A stretch of 64,000 nucleotides of DNA from Paraphotobacterium marinum. GTDB taxonomy: Bacteria; Pseudomonadota; Gammaproteobacteria; Enterobacterales; Vibrionaceae. The stretch spans positions 1-64,000 of the forward strand of contig NZ_CP022355.1 in assembly GCF_002216855.1 (NCBI RefSeq), given 5' to 3'. The notes under the pieces are model-generated. The model saw nothing but the letters and a program-made list of their open reading frames with translations, did not search any database and was not told the DNA's origin. Both the position numbers and the translations under genes were made by a program. The first letter of the stretch is position 1, and every line of letters begins with the position of its first letter. This document shows, piece after piece, positions 6,881 to 56,947 of the stretch.

Positions 6881-7609
6881 ATGAAAAAAATATTTTTAAT
6901 CCTAAGTTTATTTTTATCTTCAACGGCATTTGCTTCGCAAACCATAAAATTTGCTACAGAAGCAAGCTATCCTCCATTTGAGTATACAAACCAAAAAGGT
7001 GAAATTATTGGCTTTGACATTGATATTGCTAAAGCATTATGTTCACAAATTAAAGCCAAATGTACATTTACAAATCAATCTTTTGATAGTTTAATTCCTG
7101 CTATCAAATTTAATCGCTATGACGCAGCAATATCAGCTATGGATATCACCGCTGAAAGAAGCAAACAAGTAAGTTTTAGTGATCCCTATTACGACAATGC
7201 AGCAGAATTCATTGCGATAAACCCAAAAGATAAATCTATAAATGACCTTAAAGGGAAACGTGTTGGTGTGCAAAATGGTACCACGCATCAAAAATACATT
7301 AATGAAAATTTAAAAGATATTATAACTGTGCCCTATGACAGTTATCAAAATGCATTGATTGATTTAAAAAATGGAAGAATCGAGGCTGTTTTTGGAGATA
7401 CTGCCGTATTAAACGAATGGCTTAAGAAAGATAATAAACTTCATATTGTGGGAGATAAGGTAACTGATAAAAATTATTTTGGTAATGGATTGGGTATTGC
7501 CGTCAACAAATCAAACACAAAATTATTAAATCAACTAAACAAAGCGCTTGCGACCATCAAGTCTAATGGCACATATCAAAAAATTTATGATAAGTATTTT
7601 AAACAATGA
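6881..7609 (+). CDS. artJ: ArtJ-like periplasmic arginine-binding protein
   Basis: The 242-residue protein starts with a signal peptide (KKIFLILSLFLSSTAFA, cleavage after AFA). It continues as an SBP family 3 protein: IKFATEASYPPFEYTN, GFDIDIAKALC, DAAISAMDIT and KRVGVQNGTTHQKY. These motifs are typical of ArtJ/ArtI. It captures the amino acid in the periplasm and delivers it to the ArtQM channel. An AGGAAGC ribosome site precedes the ATG. Its stop overlaps the start of artQ (ATGA), which suggests translational coupling. Confidence 0.88.
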   Translation: MKKIFLILSLFLSSTAFASQTIKFATEASYPPFEYTNQKGEIIGFDIDIAKALCSQIKAKCTFTNQSFDSLIPAIKFNRYDAAISAMDITAERSKQVSFSDPYYDNAAEFIAINPKDKSINDLKGKRVGVQNGTTHQKYINENLKDIITVPYDSYQNALIDLKNGRIEAVFGDTAVLNEWLKKDNKLHIVGDKVTDKNYFGNGLGIAVNKSNTKLLNQLNKALATIKSNGTYQKIYDKYFKQ

Positions 7610-43820: not shown

Positions 43821-44247
43821 TACAAAGCAGTTAGCTCATATCCTAAAAAATTTACAAGTTACACATGCACTGTATCAAAAGTTACAAAAACTTTTGTTAA
43901 GTCAACAAAAGTTTTTTGTCGAATTCAAATCTCAAGAACTTCAAGAAAATGCTAAAACTCAAATTAAAGTTCTTAACGATTTAAGCAAATTAAGAGAAAA
44001 TAGAGCTAAACTTTTAACTTCATTGAAACTTGAAAATTCAAATGATGGTATCAAATGTTTATTTAAATTCTACCCTCAATCCCTACAAGAAAAAATAGAA
44101 ACTTTATGGTCAGCTATCTGTCAATTAAATAAAATATCCAAAAAGTTAAATCTACAAAATGGCAAACTATCTGCACACTATCATGAAATACTCTCAGATA
44201 TTTTAAATAATCAAAACTATGATCCTATGTCACTCATGAAGTACTAA
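43807..44247 (+). CDS. flgN: FlgN, FlgK/FlgL chaperone
   Basis: The 146-residue helical protein starts at the ATG 43807, inside the flgM end; the earlier in-frame start at 43759 would overlap flgM extensively. Motifs include FVEFKSQELQENAKTQ and RENRAKLLTSLKLEN, as in FlgN. It delivers FlgK and FlgL to the export gate. It closes the flagellar block; its last four bases overlap the convergent M20 peptidase gene. Confidence 0.8.
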   Translation: MKNPNTKQLAHILKNLQVTHALYQKLQKLLLSQQKFFVEFKSQELQENAKTQIKVLNDLSKLRENRAKLLTSLKLENSNDGIKCLFKFYPQSLQEKIETLWSAICQLNKISKKLNLQNGKLSAHYHEILSDILNNQNYDPMSLMKY

Positions 44248-45332
44248 ATTTGATATAGTTCGAAGATTTGATAAGATTCATTTATTCTTTGTGCGAAACT
44301 TTTTTTATTAGCTCTTTCATGCACAGTATGATCTCCATCACCAAAAGGACCGAAACCATCCAAGGTGGCAACACCTTTTTCAGCAAATACATTGGCATCA
44401 CTAACACCGCCCCTTTTTTCTTTTTTTAATACATAACCAAGTTTTTTTTCAATTTTTTTGATAAAAGCTTTTTGTGCATTCGTCTCTACCATAACATCTC
44501 TCTGAACGCCCCCTGAAAGTTTACAGGACACACCTCTGACCCACTGTTCTTTCACGACTAAATCTATGTCTCTTAAAACTCGATTTTTTTCTTCAAGTGA
44601 CTCAAATCTCGCTTCTACCAAAATTTCTGAAGTAGGAGCAATAGTATTTGCACCAATTCCTCCTTTTATAACGCCTGCATTTACTGTTGTGCCTTTTTCG
44701 ATACACGTTAAGTCTGTCAATGCAATAAGTGCTTTAGCTGCAGCTAAGTTGGCATTTTTCCCTTCTGTATAATGATTCCCAGCATGAGCTGCTTTACCCT
44801 CAAAGTTTAATTTAAAAGTCGCTATTCCTTTTCGAGCAACAACAACTTCCATATTTTGTCCAGCTGCTTCAAAGTCGATACATTCATCATAGTTTAATGC
44901 AATTTCTTGTGATAATTTTTTACTATCATCACTACCTGTTTCTTCATCACTCACTAATAAAACGTCAATATTGTAAACATGACCATATTTTTGAAAAATA
45001 TTTTTTAAAGCACAATAAGCAATAAAATTGCCGCCTTTCATATCGCAAACACCTGGACCATAAACCCATTCAGCATCTTCTTTAAACTGAGTAAATGTCT
45101 CTGGTGGAAAAACAGTATCTAAATGCCCCAAAAGAAGCAATCTTGTGTTTTTAGAGTTAAATTTAGTTTTAAAATATAAATGATTACCAATATCTTCCCT
45201 TTTATATTCTGATATCTGATAACCGATATCACGGTAAAGTGACTTCATTATTTCACCATTTAAATCAACTCCAACTTTATTTTTTGTCCATGAGTTAATT
45301 TCAACTAATTGCTTTAGAACCGAAAAATCCAT
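44244..45332 (-). CDS. M20-family metallopeptidase, glutamate carboxypeptidase-like
   Basis: The 362-residue protein has the M20 metal-site motifs LLLLGHLDTVFP and GVCDMKGGNFIAYCAL, the catalytic Glu pair in LLVSDEETGSDDS, and a dimerisation domain with FEGKAAHAGNHYTEGKNANL. C-terminal GDGDHTVHERANKKS supplies the last metal-binding His. It resembles carboxypeptidase G2/ArgE-type enzymes that cleave N-acyl or glutamyl amides. No signal peptide is present, so it should be cytoplasmic. It is divergent from the two ATP-grasp genes across 140 bases. Confidence 0.87.
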   Translation of the reverse strand: MDFSVLKQLVEINSWTKNKVGVDLNGEIMKSLYRDIGYQISEYKREDIGNHLYFKTKFNSKNTRLLLLGHLDTVFPPETFTQFKEDAEWVYGPGVCDMKGGNFIAYCALKNIFQKYGHVYNIDVLLVSDEETGSDDSKKLSQEIALNYDECIDFEAAGQNMEVVVARKGIATFKLNFEGKAAHAGNHYTEGKNANLAAAKALIALTDLTCIEKGTTVNAGVIKGGIGANTIAPTSEILVEARFESLEEKNRVLRDIDLVVKEQWVRGVSCKLSGGVQRDVMVETNAQKAFIKKIEKKLGYVLKKEKRGGVSDANVFAEKGVATLDGFGPFGDGDHTVHERANKKSFAQRINESYQIFELYQI

Positions 45333-45406
45333 TTATTACCTCTATTTTTAAAAACAATGAAAAAAAAAACATTACATACAGTTAGTTAACTATTTCAAAA
45401 ATACAC

Positions 45407-45435
45407 TTGATATTACATATCATATGCAACATAAT
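45407..45435 (+). promoter_or_regulatory. sigma-70-type promoter of the ATP-grasp operon
   Basis: TTGATA at 45407-45412 and CATAAT at 45430-45435 are spaced by 17 bases. A second TATAAT lies at 45456-45461 without a good -35. An AAGGAGAG ribosome site follows before the ATG at 45473. Confidence 0.5.
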
Positions 45436-45472
45436 GAATATATTACGCATCGAGGTATAATACAAGGAGAGA

Positions 45473-46435
45473 ATGATGCAAAAGCCACAAATAGGAATGT
45501 GGATGTACCAAAATGGTGGTGGTACTGAAATAGAAAACAAACTATCTTACCAACTTCAAGATAGGAATATAAATGTCATTAAAAATATTGATCTAAAAAA
45601 TGCTGTTGCCCATAATGGCAGTTTATATTGTCATGACATTAACTTAAACCAATTGGATTTGTTTTTTAGTTATAATGCTGGGAATCAAACCCATCATCAA
45701 ACCTACATTTACAAAGAGCTCAACAAATCTATACCCATGATAAATAATTTCGAAGCCTTTGACTTAACGGAAGATAAATTTAGAACCAGTCATTTACTCA
45801 ACCAACATTCAATTACCTGTTCAGATTATCTTTTATGTGGCTCTGAGAATATTCTAAAAATCTACGATCAATTTCAGGCTTGGGGTAATCAAGCTATTTT
45901 AAAGTCTTTGCATGGATGGGGCGGAAAAGATCTTATTAAAATAAACAATAGAAAAGAACTCCAAAATATTTTACAGAGTAATTTTTTTAAGGAAAATCCA
46001 ACTCATTATTTCGAGCGAGTCATAAAAAATGATTTCACTGACTATCGTATAGATATCGTCAATAATGAATTCATAGCCTGTTATGGAAGAAAAGCTGCCA
46101 AAGGTAGCTGGAAAACAAACGTAACAGCTGGTGGGAAGGTTATCCCAAGAGAAGCAAATGATGAGATCGTTAACATTGCCCTTCAAGCAGCAAAAGCATG
46201 TCAGCTTGAAATTGCGGGAGTTGATATTCTTTTTGACATAGAAAGGCAACAATACGTTGTTCTAGAAGTGAATGGGATTCCAGCATTTGCGACCCCACAA
46301 CAGGAAAAAAGCGGACTGAATTTTAACACAAAAAAAATTGATGCAATCGTACAACTTATTGACGAAAAAGTTCATGAACATCGTCAAAATTATTATAACA
46401 ATGTGATTAGGAGAGAAACTGAAAATGAATACTAG
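45473..46435 (+). CDS. RimK-like ATP-grasp ligase 1
   Basis: The 320-residue protein has an ATP-grasp core: AILKSLHGWGGKDLIKI as nucleotide-binding loop, FTDYRIDIVNNEFIACYGRK, the substrate/phosphate region KGSWKTNVTAGGKV, and the metal-binding end AGVDILFD with VVLEVNGIPAF. This is the RimK/LysX/glutathione-synthetase type, forming amide bonds from a carboxylate and an amine at the expense of ATP. Specificity cannot be read. It overlaps the next ATP-grasp gene by eleven bases. A tyrosine/asparagine-rich tail follows the domain. Confidence 0.82.
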   Translation: MMQKPQIGMWMYQNGGGTEIENKLSYQLQDRNINVIKNIDLKNAVAHNGSLYCHDINLNQLDLFFSYNAGNQTHHQTYIYKELNKSIPMINNFEAFDLTEDKFRTSHLLNQHSITCSDYLLCGSENILKIYDQFQAWGNQAILKSLHGWGGKDLIKINNRKELQNILQSNFFKENPTHYFERVIKNDFTDYRIDIVNNEFIACYGRKAAKGSWKTNVTAGGKVIPREANDEIVNIALQAAKACQLEIAGVDILFDIERQQYVVLEVNGIPAFATPQQEKSGLNFNTKKIDAIVQLIDEKVHEHRQNYYNNVIRRETENEY

Positions 46436-47513
46436 ACCTAAATTAGGGTTTTTATATTTTGATTATGTTTTGCAATTTTTTAATAAGAGTAATTTTAAAG
46501 GGTGGCCTGAAAAAATTGAAACTGTTACGTATCACTGGGATAATCAGATAGATGCTTTTATAGATGAAGTAAAAAGAAAAAAAGTTGATGTCTTGATAGG
46601 CAATATCCCGGCCACTGCCTATGAAACATTTGTTAAAATTTCGAAAAAAATTCCTCATATAAAATTTATTCCCTCAATTGAAAGTCAGTTTTGTAATCGT
46701 TCAAAAGAAAATGTGACACTTTTCTGTGAAGCACATAAATTATCAGCACCTAATACAAATATTTTTTACAACAAAGAAGAAAGGGACAATTTTATAGAAA
46801 AAACCCACTATCCTAAAATTGTCAAACGTTCATATGGACCATCTAACTACGGGGGTTATTTTGTCCATAAAGTGGATACAAAATCAGAAATGCAAAAGCT
46901 ATTTGCTGAAAAAAAATATCACCCTGCGTATATACAAGATTATGTACCTTTAACAGCTGACATTCGTGTCATGTTAATTGGGCATAAGCCTGTGTGTGCC
47001 TTTTGGAGAAGACCCGCTAAAGGACAATGGCTTACAAATACAAGTCAGGGTGGCTCAATGGATTATGCTAATGTACCGGAAGAGGTTTTAAATTTAGCTA
47101 TCAAAGCTTCAAAGGCAGCCAAAGCAGAATACTGGGCTTGTGATATTGCAATTGATAATAAAAATAATATAAAAATCTTAGAATGCGCGACTGCATTTGC
47201 GGCCTTTCCCTACATACGTGACTGGATTGGTCAATATCTAATGGCCATCCTAGCTCCAAATGAATTTAATATGCCAAACATACCCCATCGTAATTGGGAG
47301 GAAATTGGTAAAATTAATTCATCACTTTTAAGGACGATGCGAGACATAAGTTTCTCAAAACATGTCCCTTTTTATTCTGAAACTGGAGAGTTAATGGCAA
47401 GTGTTGAGTTTGATAACAATCAAAATTTACCAGAGATATCGATGTTAAACTGGTATAAAAAACATATGGAATTTCATCTTAACAAAAATAAAGAGAAGGA
47501 CCTTGTCGTTTAA
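46425..47513 (+). CDS. RimK-like ATP-grasp ligase 2
   Basis: The 362-residue protein has a related but distinct ATP-grasp core: HYPKIVKRSYGPSNYGGYFV, TADIRVMLIGHKPVCAFWRR, KGQWLTNTSQGGSMDYAN and ACDIAIDNKNNIKILECATA. The final asparagine-containing metal motif of ligase 1 (EVNG) is ECAT here, so metal binding may be altered. An AGGAGAG site lies upstream and the start overlaps ligase 1. The pair could act in sequence or as a heterodimer; this is inference. Confidence 0.77.
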   Translation: MNTRPKLGFLYFDYVLQFFNKSNFKGWPEKIETVTYHWDNQIDAFIDEVKRKKVDVLIGNIPATAYETFVKISKKIPHIKFIPSIESQFCNRSKENVTLFCEAHKLSAPNTNIFYNKEERDNFIEKTHYPKIVKRSYGPSNYGGYFVHKVDTKSEMQKLFAEKKYHPAYIQDYVPLTADIRVMLIGHKPVCAFWRRPAKGQWLTNTSQGGSMDYANVPEEVLNLAIKASKAAKAEYWACDIAIDNKNNIKILECATAFAAFPYIRDWIGQYLMAILAPNEFNMPNIPHRNWEEIGKINSSLLRTMRDISFSKHVPFYSETGELMASVEFDNNQNLPEISMLNWYKKHMEFHLNKNKEKDLVV

Positions 47514-47546
47514 TTTTGTTACAACTTTCAAATAAAGAGATTTTTA

Positions 47547-50189
47547 ATGAAAAAGAGATATTTATCATATTTAGATGCAATAGATAAATTGGAAGAGTTC
47601 CAGTCAAAGTATCCAGAGTTAATCAAACTTGAAACCATTGGATATACACATGAAGAAAGGCCCATAAAGCTTGCTATACTTGCAAAAGATTTATCTGTAG
47701 CACATATTAAGCCTGCTCTTTTATTTACAGGGACTATCCATGCAAGAGAATGGATTGGGATTGAGTTAGGGATTTCTTTAATTGAACATATATTAACAAA
47801 TATATCTAGCAATCCAGAACTAGATAATACTTTAACGAAAAATACGCTATATATCGTGCCCTGTTTAAATCCAGATGGATTTGAGTACTCTCAAAAACAT
47901 TTTTCATTTTGGAGAAAAAATCGTAGAAAAAATAGCGATGGAAGCTATGGCGTTGATCTGAATAGAAACTTTTCTGTAAATTTCAAATCATCAAACAATA
48001 CATCTTCCAATGTTTATGGGGGGCCATACCCTTTTTCAGAACCTGAAACACAAGCGATTCGTGATTTTGTTGAAGAGCATAGCAATATAACCATTGCACT
48101 TGATTATCACTCTCAGGGAAATGTTTTTTTTCCGGCTCATAAATTTAATCACGAGGCGGAAATTGAAGGATCTGATTTAAATATTTTATGTGCCAACATG
48201 GCTAATGAAATATATAAAGTATCTGGCAGAAAATATGGCATTCATAGAGGGAAACCGCCAACAAACCTTATCCATGGTAGTGGACGTGAATATTATTATC
48301 ACAAAGGTATCTTGTCAACCGTGGTTGAAGTTGGCACAAGAAATATACCTGACTACCTATTGAATATGACTGAAAGTATTCATGAAAACATTCCGGCTGT
48401 TTTATATGCGCTAAGCTGTGCTCAAAACTATTCAACACATGCTCCTTCAAGACCTTCTTGCCTCAAGATTGATGAATTAAAATTTCAAAATGTGACGCTT
48501 AAGTGGGACAATGATCTTAAGGACAATGAAGTATATGAGTTATACAGAAGTACTGATCCTAAAAAGCCCTGTAATGAATCAAATAAAATTGCAATTACAA
48601 CCAACAATTATTTTATAGACACAAATGTAAAGAGCTATCAAAGATATTTTTACGCACTTAGAAAGCTAAATTATGAACTAAAGATTGCCTCTCCATTCGC
48701 CCCTATTCTAAAAATACAGACCTTACTAGAAAAAAATGAATTAGCTCATACTTTTTTCCCAAACAAAAAAGAAATTGGGTATGTTGGTCAAAAAACACAA
48801 AAAAGTAATCACGAACACTTTGGCAATAACTCTCTATTTGTTGGAGTAAATAAAATCAAAGGAGTATGTTTTGGTGTTATCAATTTTGATCTAATGAAAC
48901 TGCCAAGTGAGTCTATATTAAAAAGTGCGAAATTGTATTTATATCCAATGAATCGAGTTGCAGCAAAAATAGAAAATTATGGTTCATGGTCATTTTCAAT
49001 AATAGATCGTAATTCAATTGATGATATTACTAACTTTCAGCAAATAGAAAATGCTGAAGTCATTGCTAATTTAGGGTATCAGATTGAATCAGATAAAATG
49101 ACACAAGGGATATGGTTATGTTGGAACTTCAATGGTAATGAATTAAAATTACTCCGCAAACAAATTGAAGAAGGTCATCTTTTACTGAGAATGCAGGGGC
49201 CTAAAAAACTCCCAATCAATAATGACTCACAAGTCATGCAATTTGATATTGGTTATGGTAAGTTTGGGGGCGGTATTCACTACAGACCTAGTCTAGAGAT
49301 TCAATATTCTCTTCGACCCAAATCTTTTGAAATTAATTCTTTTATAACTCAGTCGCTTAATGCCTCGCAAAATATCTCTAATGAAATTAAATCAGGATAT
49401 GATTCCGAGGGACTCCCTATATTTTCCACATTAAGTTTTAATTGTAGCTCTTTAGATTCAGTTGAAAATCTTGTAATTACCGATGCTTATCTAGAGCTAA
49501 AGTCAAACGGAGCATCTAATAACAATAGCAATGTTCGTTACGCTATTGAAATGACAAAAGATAATCATTTGAATTACTCAACAATTAAAGATGTGACTTT
49601 GCACAGCGAAATATTAGGTTATGAAATTAATATTAAGGATATGTATAAAAAAGAACCTCAAATATTTCAGTTTGATAGTTCATCCAAGCACACCTTAGAA
49701 CAATTAATTTCTAGAAAAGAGCCATTCATTAATTTCATCATCCGCCCAAACACACCCAACTTTGAAAAAAACATTACAGGAAACTGGTCTAGCGCTAGTT
49801 TGCATATTAAGTATATATCAAAAAGACTTAATCCTATTGATGAGCCAAAATCTTTATCTGCTAACATCGAAAATAATGTAGTCAAATTAAGCTGGGAACG
49901 CTCTCAACATCCTGATTTTGTCGGCTCTTACGTAGTAAGAAATAATTTTAACCCGCCTTCAAACCCTATGGACGGTGTTAAAATATATGCTGGGCAGGAT
50001 AGCTTTACCTATGATAATTTTGGTAATCCCAATATCCCAAAATATTATGCGGTATTTTTTTATGATAATGTCCCCAATTACTCTAAACCAAATACAATAT
50101 TTTTTAATTCAGACCAATCATATGAACATATTCAAAATGAATTCGAGGCTCAAGATATTGAAGAACAAAGGTATATGAATGGTGATTAA
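47547..50189 (+). CDS. large M14 zinc carboxypeptidase with C-terminal beta-sandwich domains
   Basis: The 880-residue protein starts directly with an M14 peptidase domain (about 1-300). Zinc ligands are H65 and E68 in TIHAREW and H188 in LDYHSQG; the catalytic Glu is E261 in VVEVGT, and LNPDGFEYS and GVDLNRNF form the substrate site. After about residue 320 follow an Fn3-like piece (VTLKWDNDLKDNEVYELYRS), one or two DNRLRE-like beta domains (ILKSAKLYLYP; ITDAYLELKSN) and a final Fn3-like domain (VVKLSWERSQHP). No signal peptide is seen, unusual for this architecture. It follows the ligases by 33 bases and ends at a strong terminator. Confidence 0.83.
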   Translation: MKKRYLSYLDAIDKLEEFQSKYPELIKLETIGYTHEERPIKLAILAKDLSVAHIKPALLFTGTIHAREWIGIELGISLIEHILTNISSNPELDNTLTKNTLYIVPCLNPDGFEYSQKHFSFWRKNRRKNSDGSYGVDLNRNFSVNFKSSNNTSSNVYGGPYPFSEPETQAIRDFVEEHSNITIALDYHSQGNVFFPAHKFNHEAEIEGSDLNILCANMANEIYKVSGRKYGIHRGKPPTNLIHGSGREYYYHKGILSTVVEVGTRNIPDYLLNMTESIHENIPAVLYALSCAQNYSTHAPSRPSCLKIDELKFQNVTLKWDNDLKDNEVYELYRSTDPKKPCNESNKIAITTNNYFIDTNVKSYQRYFYALRKLNYELKIASPFAPILKIQTLLEKNELAHTFFPNKKEIGYVGQKTQKSNHEHFGNNSLFVGVNKIKGVCFGVINFDLMKLPSESILKSAKLYLYPMNRVAAKIENYGSWSFSIIDRNSIDDITNFQQIENAEVIANLGYQIESDKMTQGIWLCWNFNGNELKLLRKQIEEGHLLLRMQGPKKLPINNDSQVMQFDIGYGKFGGGIHYRPSLEIQYSLRPKSFEINSFITQSLNASQNISNEIKSGYDSEGLPIFSTLSFNCSSLDSVENLVITDAYLELKSNGASNNNSNVRYAIEMTKDNHLNYSTIKDVTLHSEILGYEINIKDMYKKEPQIFQFDSSSKHTLEQLISRKEPFINFIIRPNTPNFEKNITGNWSSASLHIKYISKRLNPIDEPKSLSANIENNVVKLSWERSQHPDFVGSYVVRNNFNPPSNPMDGVKIYAGQDSFTYDNFGNPNIPKYYAVFFYDNVPNYSKPNTIFFNSDQSYEHIQNEFEAQDIEEQRYMNGD

Positions 50190-51601: not shown

Positions 51602-51619
51602 AGGGAACGTTTTCCCTTT
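51600..51619. terminator. hairpin between the small ORF and nspC
   Basis: AAAGGGAA (51600-51607) and TTCCCTTT (51612-51619) form an eight-base stem with a CGTT loop. It starts in the stop codon of the small ORF and lies at the 3' end of convergent nspC. The T tract is short on either side. Confidence 0.45.
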
Positions 51620-52754
51620 ATCTTATAGTTTCGTCTGATAAAAATCTTTCAAAATCTGTATAGTCATAACTTTTCAGCAAATCAATCGTATTATCTAATC
51701 TTTTGCAAACGATACTCGGCATCTTTAATCCGTTAAACCAATTTAATTTAACCATAGTATAACCTGCACTATCTTCAATATGTAATCTTTGCCCTATTTC
51801 AAGAGGTTTATCAAAGTTAGCTTCACAGAATTGATCTCCAGCTAGACAAGAACAACTACCCACTACGTAATTATATGCACCATTTGAAGATGATTCTCTA
51901 ATTTGTGCTGGTTCATTATATATCAAGGTATCCAAACGATGAGCTTCAGTAGCACTATCTACGATAACAGTATTTTTTTGATTTTCTACAATATCTAAAA
52001 CAGTAACAACTAAATCGGTCGTTTTTGTTACAATAGCTTCACCTGGCTCTAGATAAACTGCAATATTAAATCGTTTAGAAAAGTCTTTCAGAGCCAGTGC
52101 AAGTTTTTTGATATCGTAATTTTCCCATGTAAAAAAAACACCACCCCCAAAACTAACCCATTTAAATTTATCAAAATAATAAGCATACTTTTCACTAATA
52201 TAATCGAGTGATTTTATAAAATTATCAGCATTTTTATTTTCACAATTGATATGGAACATACACCCATCAACATTATCATATAAGCTTTGAGTCATTTTTT
52301 CAAAAGGAACACCTAATCTAGAAAAAGGTCTTGCTGGATTTGCAAGATCCTGATTGGCGTAACTTATTCCAGGATTGAGCCTAATACCAATGGATTTATT
52401 TTCAACGTGTTTGTAAAATTTTAAAAATTGTGATTCTGAATTAAAAATTATTTTATCGGCATACTTTCTAACTTCAAGAATATCCTCTTCACTATAACCA
52501 ACACTATATGAATGTGTTTCTTTACCAAATTTCTCATATCCAAGTCGAACCTCATTTGGGCCACTACTTGTTGTTCCATCAAGATAGGGTTCAATAATCT
52601 TAAAAACTCCCCAAGTAGAAAAACACTTCAGTGCAAGAACTAACTTTACTCCAGAAAGACTTTTTAACAACTTAGCTTTTTCTAAATTTGCGATTAATTT
52701 TTTTTCGTCTATCAAAAAAAATGGGGTTTTGATCTTATCAATTTGATTTAACAT
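51618..52754 (-). CDS. nspC: NspC, carboxynorspermidine decarboxylase
   Basis: The 378-residue alanine-racemase-fold PLP enzyme carries the PLP lysine K43 ([13 protein letters not shown]), the glycine loop [22 protein letters not shown] and the active-site cysteine region [13 protein letters not shown]. It decarboxylates carboxynorspermidine to norspermidine, or carboxyspermidine to spermidine. It is the last gene of a three-gene operon in the same order as V. cholerae VC1625-VC1624-VC1623. Confidence 0.92.
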
Positions 52755-52816
52755 ATTCTAAAAATCCTATGTTTAAAAATCCATGTTGAATAAACATTAG
52801 TCAACATGGATAATAT

Positions 52817-54064
52817 TTATTTAGATAAATCCTTAATTTCTGGTTTCAGATCCCCTAAATCCTGGACATCCCATGAAAGCCCAATGTTAGGCATTAATTC
52901 AAGAAAGTGCTCAGGAGGCAATTGTTCCATATTAAACAATCCTTTTTCTGCCCAAAGACCTTTAAAGTACAACAAAGCACTCGTAATAGCAGGAACACCA
53001 GTCGTATATGCTATTGCCTGATGCTCAACATCTTCATAAGCCACTTCGTGATCAGCATTGTTGAAAATAAATATACTTTTGGACTTATTATCTTTTTTTC
53101 CTCTAACCCATGTACCTATACATGTTTGCCCTTTATAATTTGGAGCTAATGAAGTTGGTTCAGGTAACAATGCTTTCAAAAATTTCAAGGGTTCAATTTC
53201 TTGGCCATTAGGCATCGTGATAGCTTCGGAGCTTAATAACCCAATGTCTCTCATAACATTAAAGTAATTTAGATACTTATCTCCAAAGCCCATCCAAAAT
53301 TCAATTCTTTTTGCAGGAATAAATTCTTTCAGTGATCTTACTTCATCATGAGCCATTGAGTATACTTTGTGCTTGCCGATCATTGGGAAATCGAACTCCA
53401 TCATCCTGGTATGACATGGAACTTGATGCCAAGATTCATTTTCCCAATAAAATGAATCACCCTGAATTTCAAGCATGTTTGTTTCTGGATCAAAGTTTGT
53501 GGCAAATTTCTTACCATGATCACCTGCATTTACATCCATAACGTCAATCGAATCTATTTCATCAAAAAGTGATTTAGATGCATAAGCAGCAAAGACACTG
53601 ACAACACCAGGATCAAAGCCAGCACCCAAAATACCAGTTATACCAGCTTCTTTAAACTTATTCCTGAAATTCCATTGAGGATCATATGCTTCTGGGACTT
53701 GTTGACCTGGGCTACAAAGATCTGTTGCAACAGAAGTATCTAGATATGAGGTTTTTGTTTGGTAACAAGCCTCCATAATATTAACGTTAATCCATGGAGG
53801 ACCTGCATTAATGACCAATTTAGGCTTAACACTTTCGATTAGTGTAATCAGCGCTTCTAATGAATCTGCATTTACTTCATGAGCAATAATTTTTTTAGTT
53901 TGATCATGAAGATTATCTTTTTTATGTATAGATTGAATAATACTTTCGCATTTATTTATATTACGCGATGCGATATGTATATCCCCTAAAATATCATTAT
54001 TTTGTGCTGCTTTATGAGCAATAACCCATCCAACGCCTCCAGCACCAATTTGAAGAATAGTCAT
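52817..54064 (-). CDS. carboxynorspermidine dehydrogenase (saccharopine dehydrogenase family)
   Basis: The 415-residue protein starts with a Rossmann motif (ILQIGAGGVGWVIAHKAAQN) and has VINAGPPWINVNIMEACYQT and GILGAGFDPGVVSVFAAYA, as in saccharopine/carboxynorspermidine dehydrogenases. It condenses aspartate beta-semialdehyde with 1,3-diaminopropane (or putrescine) using NADPH. It lies three bases after the fusion enzyme that makes diaminopropane and upstream of nspC, which supports this role over lysine metabolism. Confidence 0.91.
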   Translation of the reverse strand: MTILQIGAGGVGWVIAHKAAQNNDILGDIHIASRNINKCESIIQSIHKKDNLHDQTKKIIAHEVNADSLEALITLIESVKPKLVINAGPPWINVNIMEACYQTKTSYLDTSVATDLCSPGQQVPEAYDPQWNFRNKFKEAGITGILGAGFDPGVVSVFAAYASKSLFDEIDSIDVMDVNAGDHGKKFATNFDPETNMLEIQGDSFYWENESWHQVPCHTRMMEFDFPMIGKHKVYSMAHDEVRSLKEFIPAKRIEFWMGFGDKYLNYFNVMRDIGLLSSEAITMPNGQEIEPLKFLKALLPEPTSLAPNYKGQTCIGTWVRGKKDNKSKSIFIFNNADHEVAYEDVEHQAIAYTTGVPAITSALLYFKGLWAEKGLFNMEQLPPEHFLELMPNIGLSWDVQDLGDLKPEIKDLSK

Positions 54065-54067
54065 TTT

Positions 54068-56947
54068 TTATAACTCCCTTTTAATTTTATTAAATAAAAT
54101 GTTTAATTGTTTAAACATTTCAGTAAGGTCTTGTAACTTAATACATGGATTTAATATAGTAACTTTTAAACTCACATTTCCATCAACTTTTGTTTCACCT
54201 AATATAGCCACTCCGTCTTCTAAAGCCATTTCTCTTATTGTACAATTTAATTTATTTAAATCTTTTATTTCAGAGTCAATGAATCGAAATAATATTGTTG
54301 AAAGTTGTGGGCTCCTCAAAACCTGAATATGTTTTTCACCCTCCAAAAAGTTAGCTAACTGATTAGTTAAATCAAAGACGTTATCATACATCCTACCAAA
54401 GTTATTTAAACCAACATGCTGAAGTGATAAAAGTACTTTTAACGCATCGAATCTTCTGGTTGTAGCGATTGACTTATCTACTAAATTTGGCAACTTATCA
54501 TTTTCACGATTTAAATAGTCAGCATGATGAAGTAAATAATTGAAATTCTCTCTATTTCTTATTAAAAACGCTCCGCAACTGATAGGTTGATAAAACAATT
54601 TATGAAAGTCTAATGTAATAGAGTCGGCTTTGTAGATTCCTTCAAGCATCTTTCTCCTAGAGCTGAATATTAAGCTGCCACCATAAGCTGCATCGACATG
54701 AAACCATAAATCATGTTTTTCTGCTATTTTAGACTGCTCAAGTAAAGGATCAATTGCACCTTCATCTGTAGTTCCAGCAGTCCCTACAATCATAAATGGT
54801 AAAAAGTCATTATTTTTTAAATGAAGGATTTTATTATTAAGCTCATAAATATCCATTTTCCCATTGACATCTACGGAAATAGTCTCAACAGAATCAAATC
54901 CAAGACCTAATAAAGCAGCAGATTTTTGAACAGTAAAATGAGCTGTTTCAGAACAAATAATTTTTAATCTTTGATGATAGTTAGGTAGTCCATGCTGCTT
55001 AACATTATGACCACTTAACTTATCAATAAATTTATCTCTGGCTAATAAGATACCCATTAAATTACTTTGAGTACCCCCTGAAGTAAAGATACCGTCAGCT
55101 AAAGAGTTATATCCTACATGTTCGTTTACTAATTGAATTACTTTTTGCTCAACAAAAGTTGCGGCACTTGCTTGATCCCAAGAGTCCATAGATTGGTTAA
55201 GGGCTGCTATGAATAGTTCAGACACAACACCAGTGATTAGAGGTGGTGTATGCAAATGAGCAATACAGTTTGGATGTTGGACAATAATCGAATTTTTTGC
55301 AACAAAAGAGGCAGAGGATCTCATGACATCATTGATGGTCCTTCCTTCCTTTGATATATCAAAAGAATCAATGACTGATTTTAGAACAGAAGGCATCATC
55401 CCTGAATAAGGCCCTCTTACATCATTGAATACTTTAATCAAATTTTCTGTTGCGATTGAAACTGATTCTTGAAAAAGATCCGCACCACCTTTTCCGGTAT
55501 GGATGAAAAATTTATCCAAACTTTCATGCTTTGGAAGTCTGTTTGAAGTATTAATCCCAACTTCATTTAAAAGCACGTTTTCTAAAACATCTAAAACAAA
55601 ATCAATTTGTTTATATGTAATATTTAGAGGCGGTAAAAATCTTAAAACGGAGCCATTTCGACCACCTTTTTCAATAATTAGGCCTCTTTGCAGGCAACCT
55701 CTTTGAATTTTACGAGTTAATTCTTCATCAGCCATTGGTTCACTAAATTTATTCAAAGACCCTTTCTTTGATACAATTTCAATTCCCAACATTAAACCTC
55801 TCCCTCTTACCTCAGCAATACATGAGAACTTTGAGGCAAGTTGATTTAACCCATTTTTAAAGTAATTACCTGCTACCTTAGCATGTTCAACTAAATTATC
55901 TCTTCTTATTATTTCAAATGTTTTTAAACCAGCAACCATTGCCAGTTGGTTGCCTCTAAATGTGCCAGTGTGCTCTCCCGGTCTCCAATCATCATATTTC
56001 TCATTTAAAATTAATAAAGATAAAGGTAAACCTCCTCCTACTGCTTTTGATAAGCACAAAATATCAGGAAAAATATTTGAGTTTTCGAATGCAAACCAAC
56101 TTCCCGTTTTACCTATTCCACATTGAATTTCATCAAAAATTAGCAATATGCCATGTTCTTCAGTGATTCGTCTTAATTCTTTTAACCAGAATAAAGGCGC
56201 CGGCAATACGCCTCCTTCACCTTGAACGGGCTCAACAATAATAGCCGCAGGCTTTAATATACCACTTTCATCATCATTTAATGTTCTTTCTAAATAACGA
56301 AGTGACATTTTTGCTCCATCATCACCTCCCAAACCAAAAGGACACCTTAATGAATATGGGAAAGGCATAAAATGAACATCTGCCATTAATCCAGAGCTTC
56401 TTGCTTTAGTTTGATTATTCCCCATTAAAGACATTGATCCGTTAGTCATACCATGATAAGCACCACTAAATGCAATAATATTATTCCTATTAGTTACTCT
56501 TTTGGCTAACTTGATCGCCGCTTCAACAGCGTCTGCACCAGACGGGCCACAAAACTGCACTTTTGCGCAGTTTTTAAATCCAGTAGGTAGGGTATCCAGA
56601 ACTTCTTGCATAAATACGTTCTTTACACCAGTTGTCAAATCCAATGTTTGTGAGGGTAAATCTAAATCTAAATACCTCTTAAGCTCATCTTTGATTTCAG
56701 CGTGATTATGTCCTAGCGCCAATGTTCCTGCTCCAGCAAGGCAATCTAGATAAACTTGCCCTTTTGTATCTTCTACCAAAAGACCTGATGCTTTTTTTAT
56801 GGCTAAAGGCAACCTTCTCGGGTAGGAACGAACTTCAGATTCATACTTAGTTTGTTGATTTAAATATTCATCTTCATAAAGATCATACAGTGAATCTACT
56901 ATTGGGACTTCTTGATTTTTTTTAGTTTTTTCAGTTACATAATTCAT
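54068..56947 (-). CDS. fused L-2,4-diaminobutyrate aminotransferase / decarboxylase
   Basis: The 959-residue protein joins two PLP enzymes. Residues about 1-460 are a class III aminotransferase (YLDCLAGAGTLALGHNHAEI, LIFDEIQCGIGKTGSWFAFE, PLP lysine in LCLSKAVGGGLPLS). Residues about 480-959 are a group II decarboxylase (FTSGGTQSNLMGILLARDKF, FHVDAAYGGSLIF, PLP lysine in SITLDFHKLFYQP). Aspartate semialdehyde becomes diaminobutyrate and then 1,3-diaminopropane. The same fusion occurs in Vibrio. It is the first gene of the polyamine operon and has no disruption. Confidence 0.93.
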   Translation of the reverse strand: MNYVTEKTKKNQEVPIVDSLYDLYEDEYLNQQTKYESEVRSYPRRLPLAIKKASGLLVEDTKGQVYLDCLAGAGTLALGHNHAEIKDELKRYLDLDLPSQTLDLTTGVKNVFMQEVLDTLPTGFKNCAKVQFCGPSGADAVEAAIKLAKRVTNRNNIIAFSGAYHGMTNGSMSLMGNNQTKARSSGLMADVHFMPFPYSLRCPFGLGGDDGAKMSLRYLERTLNDDESGILKPAAIIVEPVQGEGGVLPAPLFWLKELRRITEEHGILLIFDEIQCGIGKTGSWFAFENSNIFPDILCLSKAVGGGLPLSLLILNEKYDDWRPGEHTGTFRGNQLAMVAGLKTFEIIRRDNLVEHAKVAGNYFKNGLNQLASKFSCIAEVRGRGLMLGIEIVSKKGSLNKFSEPMADEELTRKIQRGCLQRGLIIEKGGRNGSVLRFLPPLNITYKQIDFVLDVLENVLLNEVGINTSNRLPKHESLDKFFIHTGKGGADLFQESVSIATENLIKVFNDVRGPYSGMMPSVLKSVIDSFDISKEGRTINDVMRSSASFVAKNSIIVQHPNCIAHLHTPPLITGVVSELFIAALNQSMDSWDQASAATFVEQKVIQLVNEHVGYNSLADGIFTSGGTQSNLMGILLARDKFIDKLSGHNVKQHGLPNYHQRLKIICSETAHFTVQKSAALLGLGFDSVETISVDVNGKMDIYELNNKILHLKNNDFLPFMIVGTAGTTDEGAIDPLLEQSKIAEKHDLWFHVDAAYGGSLIFSSRRKMLEGIYKADSITLDFHKLFYQPISCGAFLIRNRENFNYLLHHADYLNRENDKLPNLVDKSIATTRRFDALKVLLSLQHVGLNNFGRMYDNVFDLTNQLANFLEGEKHIQVLRSPQLSTILFRFIDSEIKDLNKLNCTIREMALEDGVAILGETKVDGNVSLKVTILNPCIKLQDLTEMFKQLNILFNKIKREL

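Follow-up and report, generated by a model that had tools for sequence, protein, structure and literature searches.

The stretch analysed here, called the window, comprises the first 64,000 nucleotides of contig NZ_CP022355.1 of Paraphotobacterium marinum (assembly GCF_002216855.1), and it contains a cassette of four genes in which two overlapping genes for RimK-like ATP-grasp ligases, which we call LIG1 and LIG2, are followed by a gene for an M14 zinc carboxypeptidase and lie divergent from a gene for an M20 metallopeptidase. The features of the cassette, in the coordinates of the window, are these:

44244-45332, minus strand: M20 metallopeptidase, carboxypeptidase G2-like (candidate eraser or dipeptidase), 362 residues; PF01546 and PF07687 (M20 dimerisation domain)
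45333-45472, no strand: intergenic gap between the divergent M20 and LIG1 genes, 140 bases
45473-46435, plus strand: LIG1, RimK-like ATP-grasp ligase with the complete catalytic set (D251, E265, N267, R192), 320 residues; PF08443
46425-47513, plus strand: LIG2, RimK/LysX-like ATP-grasp ligase with Asn-to-Ala at the third metal-ligand position (ECAT), 362 residues; PF08443
47547-50189, plus strand: M14 zinc carboxypeptidase, predicted to cut at acidic C-termini, with Fn3 and DNRLRE/CBM96-like C-terminal domains, 880 residues; PF00246
50224-50256, no strand: inverted repeat resembling an intrinsic terminator at the end of the cassette, a 13-pair stem followed by a T run

A first-pass annotation, made from the sequence alone, had given the same positions for the four genes, the same 11-base overlap of LIG1 and LIG2 and the same 33-base spacing between LIG2 and M14, and its enzyme families are borne out by Pfam, where the ligases match RimK (PF08443; 3e-22 and 2e-15), the M14 protein matches PF00246 (6e-54) and the M20 protein matches PF01546 together with the dimerisation domain. 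The strong terminator with which it closed the cassette corresponds to the inverted repeat and T run listed above, and this predicted hairpin could terminate transcription in both directions. The divergent gap, which had been described as a promoter region, does measure 140 bases, but the cassette region holds 28 promoter-like matches compared with 31.7 in shuffles, and because these matches do not exceed the shuffles we claim no promoter. No named pathway of this composition had been put forward, and we likewise found no description of the four-gene combination in the literature searched and no NCBIfam, Pfam or PADLOC model that names the set; no NCBIfam model of a characterised function is matched above its curated cut-off by any of the four proteins.

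A scan of 84,980 species yielded 324 LIG2-related places, and the results given here come from the best 80 of these 324. The carriers among them are Photobacterium, Veronia, Pseudoalteromonas, Alteromonas, Paraglaciecola, Psychrosphaera, Shewanella marina, Endozoicomonas, Cycloclasticus and many Campylobacterota, and the order M20 / LIG1-LIG2-M14 recurs between unrelated flanks in Vibrionaceae, Alteromonadales, Endozoicomonas, Cycloclasticus and Campylobacterota. Of 66 loci at which LIG2 is flanked by 3.5 kb or more on both sides, 54 have all four genes together within five genes of LIG2. LIG1, LIG2 and M14 share a strand in every one of these 54 complete cassettes; M20 is oriented divergently in 46 of them and in the same direction in 8, and the neighbours beyond the four genes vary from locus to locus. 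A sample of 61 genomes of relatives contained close homologues of LIG1 (46-54% identity) at eight loci in six genomes besides that of the window, and at all eight M20 is divergent from LIG1-LIG2-M14 and the flanks are unrelated. In a 41-genome subset the cassette-type M14, whose intact copies are marked by scores above 185 bits to PF00246, is confined to genomes that bear LIG1. A class-wide draw of 321 Gammaproteobacteria gave no second carrier beside the genome of the window, so carriage is patchy.

Some copies depart from this layout. Genomes G015 and G005 each carry two cassettes (L027, L029, L030), and in several copies of these fragmentary assemblies frameshifts split LIG2 and M14, through decay or assembly error. 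The Campylobacterota loci L036, L050, L058, L075, L076, L084 and L097 have both ligases, mostly with M20, and no adjoining M14; at L082 the M14 gene lies a few genes further along.

The genes also occur together irrespective of linkage. Among 150 Campylobacterota genomes, LIG1 was found in 15, intact LIG2 in 14 and M14 in 14, and LIG1, intact LIG2 and M14 are all present in the same 14 genomes. The fifteenth LIG1 adjoins its M20 where a contig of 4,156 bases ends, and the one extra LIG2 is an 87-residue remnant, 80% identical (L180, ~7050-7467), with no other cassette gene near it, which points to a recent loss. Two of the 14 genomes (G397 and G517) have LIG2 alone between efp and dnaE while M20, LIG1 and M14 lie together about 0.8 Mb away; these split sets are all retained, and co-occurrence therefore outlasts linkage. 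Patristic distances from the gene trees of 60 complete cassettes correlate with r of 0.69-0.88, a level reached by none of 999 permutations, and each pair of gene trees shares 31-40 of 57 splits, although the linkage, co-occurrence and tree counts are uncorrected for relatedness while being drawn from two phyla. The earlier annotation had offered the unity of the four genes as an inference, proposing a search for the neighbourhood across genomes and a comparison of trees, and had counted their turning up singly and unlinked in most relatives as evidence to the contrary. They do not turn up in that way: the neighbourhood recurs in two phyla, co-occurrence persists where linkage is lost and the trees agree, and we hold it as nearly certain that the four genes form one system.

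A solo LIG2 between efp (elongation factor P) and dnaE was seen at the Sulfurimonas loci L132, L133, L087 and L109, and G061 has such a copy together with a second LIG2 in a cassette. Because G061 has both, the solo LIG2 may be a paralogue that has taken the place of the cassette copy in certain genomes. We rejected the efp/dnaE neighbours as a clue to function, since they accompany only the LIG2 of Sulfurimonas, and not the other three genes.

The nearest solved relatives of LIG1 are E. coli RimK (4iwx/5zct) and Sulfolobus ArgX (3vpb). When poly-glutamate is bound to P. aeruginosa RimK, the last glutamate of the chain touches N262 and R189 (PMC10092738). A HMMER alignment places these residues at N267 and R192 of LIG1, and both are invariant in 91 of 91 sequences, as are D251 and E265, the counterparts of RimK D248 and E260. 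LIG2 keeps K134, R181, D240 and E253 and has A255 in place of the catalytic Asn in 99 of 99 sequences, while being better conserved overall than LIG1 (about 60% versus about 47% identity). Its predicted fold (model pLDDT, the predicted local distance difference test, of 75) resembles LysX, ArgX and RimK with Z of 20-21 over about 260 residues. A helix-hairpin-helix (HhH) region is present at the C-terminus of most LIG2 proteins, with PF14520 at or just under its cut-off; the LIG2 of the window and that of L026 are without it. The contrast between EVNG in LIG1 and ECAT in LIG2, from which divided roles had been suspected in the earlier annotation, is thus correct and invariant, and because the Asn-to-Ala change never varies the hint is stronger than it was. 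Its presence in all 99 sequences therefore suggests that LIG2 is either an enzyme with altered metal and substrate binding or a non-catalytic partner.

Neither ligase reaches the score of a characterised relative. The RimK cut-offs (331 bits for PRK10446, 143.4 for rimK_fam) compare with 40.8 and 126.5 for LIG1 and 22.7 and 82.7 for LIG2; LIG1 has 39.5 of the 299 bits of GshB; and the GAK system model TIGR04356, with a cut-off of 300 bits, gives 55.2 and 36.3 for the two ligases. The best NCBIfam match of LIG1 is MptN, again under the cut-off. A match of the ligases to a characterised pathway, which the annotation had named as a second ground for doubt, was accordingly not found, the scores being far under the cut-offs of glutathione synthetase, LysX, RimK-S6, MptN, CofF and GAK, and LysW being absent. 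The LIG1 search gave a single other RimK-like match in the P. marinum genome, at C1:352315-355653 (L003). Because this sole match resembles glutathione synthetase (GshB), the 2.59 Mb genome seems to be without a canonical S6-type RimK.

In the M14 protein the zinc ligands and catalytic Glu (H65, E68, H188, E261) and the carboxylate-binding N139 and R140 are invariant in 70 of 70 sequences. Equally invariant is R247, which an ungapped HMMER alignment to CPA4 and a MAFFT alignment place at position 255 of carboxypeptidase A. Arg255 confers acidic C-terminal specificity on carboxypeptidase O, and an Arg255 paralogue cleaves FA-Glu-Glu and not FA-Phe-Ala or FA-Phe-Phe (PMC9925722). Other long M14 proteins of related genomes (L154, L155) have no Arg at this position. 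The cassette M14 aligns best with the carboxypeptidase A, T and O (CPA/CPT/CPO) branch, and from its sequence we predict that it removes C-terminal acidic residues. Residues 390-880 hold carbohydrate-binding-type (DNRLRE/CBM96-like) and Fn3 domains: an Fn3 behind the catalytic domain (PF00041 in L024; a titin match), a DNRLRE-like stretch, a CBM96-like domain at about 595-757, matching 8wab (Z 15.2) and 7vbo (Z 13.4), and, at about 762-860, another Fn3. For the first beta domain (about 397-590) the structure alignment, which is dominated by Fn3 rows, gave no clear match, and this does not imply absence. All four proteins had been described as free of signal peptides; this stands for M14, in that the inspected homologues begin directly within the catalytic domain and show no classical signal peptide, and such C-terminal domains are unusual on a protein of this kind. 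Auto-modification of an M14 tail (EFEAQD..E.RY..GD, conserved as acidic in Photobacterium) was considered and rejected, as the M14 proteins of Campylobacterota and Pseudoalteromonas are without the tail.

The nearest solved chain to the M20 protein is carboxypeptidase G2 (CPG2, 1cg2; E 1e-37). In the cassette enzyme the co-catalytic zinc ligands H70, D97, E131, E155 and H335 are invariant in all 81 sequences, as are N229, R242 and R278, the counterparts of the carboxylate-binding N275, R288 and R324 of CPG2.

The nearest characterised ligases, the specificity residue of M14 and CPG2 have glutamate in common. We put forward, tentatively and as a reading with somewhat less than an even chance, that the cassette is a glutamate writer/eraser system in which LIG1 with LIG2 would add the residue and M14 and M20 would remove it. 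Such a system would operate much as RimK/RimB does, with other erasers, and broadly as tubulin ligases do with cytosolic carboxypeptidases. We infer a reversible modification in the cytoplasm, with glutamate as the residue and with labour divided between the ligases. LIG1 would use ATP to activate a carboxylate of the target and then, as RimK and ArgX do, attach an amino acid, of which L-glutamate is the likeliest. The sister ligase LIG2 has lost the catalytic Asn but retains the substrate arginine and the remainder of the fold; it might add a different residue or act as a helper or targeting subunit of LIG1. M14 would strip the added residues singly from a free C-terminus, with Arg255 gripping the acidic side chain, and the CPG2-like M20 would cleave the last residue or short glutamate-containing products. 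As M20 would be transcribed separately in most lineages, the two activities could be regulated independently. The target is somewhat more likely to be a protein C-terminus, as it is with RimK, than a cofactor or free poly-glutamate.

Several observations weigh against this proposal. No conserved target gene recurs among the neighbours of the cassette. LIG2 has an alanine at the position of RimK N262, and in RimK this Asn binds both metal and glutamate. The M14 specificity argument is one of sequence alignment and not of experimental structure, and Tyr248 of carboxypeptidase A is unconserved, position 240 of M14 being K, N, Q or H, for which a shifted loop is a possible reason. The CBM96/DNRLRE-like and Fn3 domains, usual in secreted proteins, have no place in the model. 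In the M20 protein Lys208 of CPG2 is not kept, with Glu162 in 77 of the 81 sequences, and the carboxylate-binding residues are common to other M20 enzymes and so are no proof of glutamate. Counterparts of Arg324 and Asn275 bind the substrate C-terminus across M20 enzymes (PMC6271292), and these residues therefore indicate a need for a free carboxylate and not for glutamate.

The alternative that survives best, although we consider it rather unlikely, is that the cassette serves the synthesis and turnover of a small soluble peptide or of a cofactor extended with glutamate, made by the ligases and recycled by the peptidases; a compatible solute, a peptide carrying a thiol and a coenzyme with an alpha-glutamyl tail are examples. 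On this reading LIG1 and LIG2 would add two successive residues, of which M14 would remove the outer while M20 split the rest. Two ligases and two peptidases do suit the making and unmaking of a tripeptide in two steps, the RimK-family enzymes MptN, which is also the best, though sub-threshold, NCBIfam match of LIG1, and CofF glutamylate coenzymes, CPG2-like M20 enzymes work on small glutamyl compounds, and the named carriers are mostly marine genera. However, such a scheme does not readily accommodate an M14 of 880 residues that bears several binding domains, or the HhH of nucleic-acid type found on most LIG2 proteins, and no further biosynthetic gene or transporter travels with the set.

Very improbable, in our judgement, is a carrier pathway like that of LysW, LysX and LysK, in which a ligase would load a small carrier and M20 would release the product. 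The fold of LIG2 is closest to LysX and ArgX, and also to RimK, and M20 and LysK are members of one superfamily, but LysW (TIGR01206) is absent from nine of nine cassette genomes, with control genomes positive, which largely refutes the LysW pathway itself. Moreover, the set is not accompanied by a kinase, reductase or aminotransferase, and the scores for LysX (67.6-93.8 of 275.6 bits) and LysK (36.8 of 363) are far under the cut-offs. We give even less credence to a graspetide-type product, for which the ATP-grasps would link side chains of a precursor peptide and the peptidases would process it. Some microviridin-like loci do have two ATP-grasp genes (PMC8939145), and LIG2 matches TIGR04187 weakly, but that match, at 20 of 350 bits, is far under the cut-off, a precursor gene could not fit inside the cassette, whose gaps are -11, 33 and 140 bases, and no small open reading frame recurs beside it among those of at least 80 residues, shorter ones not being covered. 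Least credible is that ordinary catabolic peptidases lie by chance beside two RimK-like genes, for although M14 and M20 are common families and one member is not nearby in several Campylobacterota loci, this reading is refuted by the linkage and co-occurrence data, the identical order in two phyla with unrelated flanks and the 14 of 14 co-occurrence that is kept when the set is split.

Two other candidates were set aside. A complete norspermidine set lies on the minus strand of the window at 51618-56947 (carboxynorspermidine decarboxylase, carboxynorspermidine synthase and a fused diaminobutyrate aminotransferase/decarboxylase); neither it nor the flanking flagellar genes travel with the cassette, and both were rejected as clues. 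A defence system was also rejected, as none of the four proteins has a PADLOC match and none occurs in phages or viral contigs. The plasmid search gave one match, a chromosome-sized replicon.

Tubulin tyrosine ligase-like (TTLL) ATP-grasp ligases add residues to tubulin tails, and M14 carboxypeptidases remove acidic ones. It is possible, with more doubt than attaches to the writer/eraser proposal in general, that the cassette is a bacterial counterpart of this tubulin code, self-contained and horizontally spread, in which two unlike ATP-grasps, one Asn-less and often HhH-fused, would put glutamate or two different residues on a protein from which two unrelated zinc carboxypeptidases would remove them. 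Reversible glutamate tagging in bacteria is already established for RimK/RimB on the ribosome, and another such system, of independent composition and recurring in marine Gammaproteobacteria and in Campylobacterota, would, if true, show such tagging to be more widespread. Tagging by a ligase plus an eraser is thus known, and it is a second residue added through LIG2, or a non-ribosomal target, that would take the cassette further from known systems. The set is in any case a compact one of four genes, and a natural case of an ATP-grasp family with invariant loss of the catalytic Asn.

Of the known systems, RimABK, which polyglutamylates S6, resembles the cassette in coupling a RimK-like ligase to a dedicated glutamate-removing peptidase, the retropepsin-like protease RimB that strips glutamate from RpsF (PMC11957791), and the glutamate contacts of RimK are kept in LIG1. 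It differs in having one ligase, whereas the cassette has two, one with an altered active site, and in its retropepsin-like eraser, in contrast to the zinc enzymes M14 and M20. Neither RimB nor RimA accompanies the cassette, and no other gene recurs among its neighbours; because the RimK cut-off is not reached and RimB is not in the cassette, we do not file it as a RimK system. The tubulin TTLL/CCP system shares the principle of an ATP-grasp ligase that adds and an M14 carboxypeptidase that removes acidic residues, CCP1 being an example of such a carboxypeptidase (PMC3620535). The cassette, however, has RimK-like ligases and no tubulin, and because its M14 aligns with the CPA/CPT/CPO branch we do not file it as a tubulin-type system. 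The LysX/ArgX-LysW-LysK pathway is similar in that LysX and ArgX are among the nearest solved folds of both ligases and an M20 enzyme releases the product, but the cassette is without LysW and the intermediate-modifying enzymes and has an M14 and a second ligase in addition. CPG2 is the nearest solved relative of the M20 protein, with equivalent zinc ligands and carboxylate-binding residues, and differs in the residue at Lys208, which is Glu in the cassette enzyme, and in a genetic context that in the cassette includes ligases. Carboxypeptidase O shares with the cassette M14 the Arg at the position of residue 255, while the cassette enzyme has no visible signal peptide and no membrane anchor, does not conserve Tyr248 and carries a 600-residue C-terminal part of beta domains.

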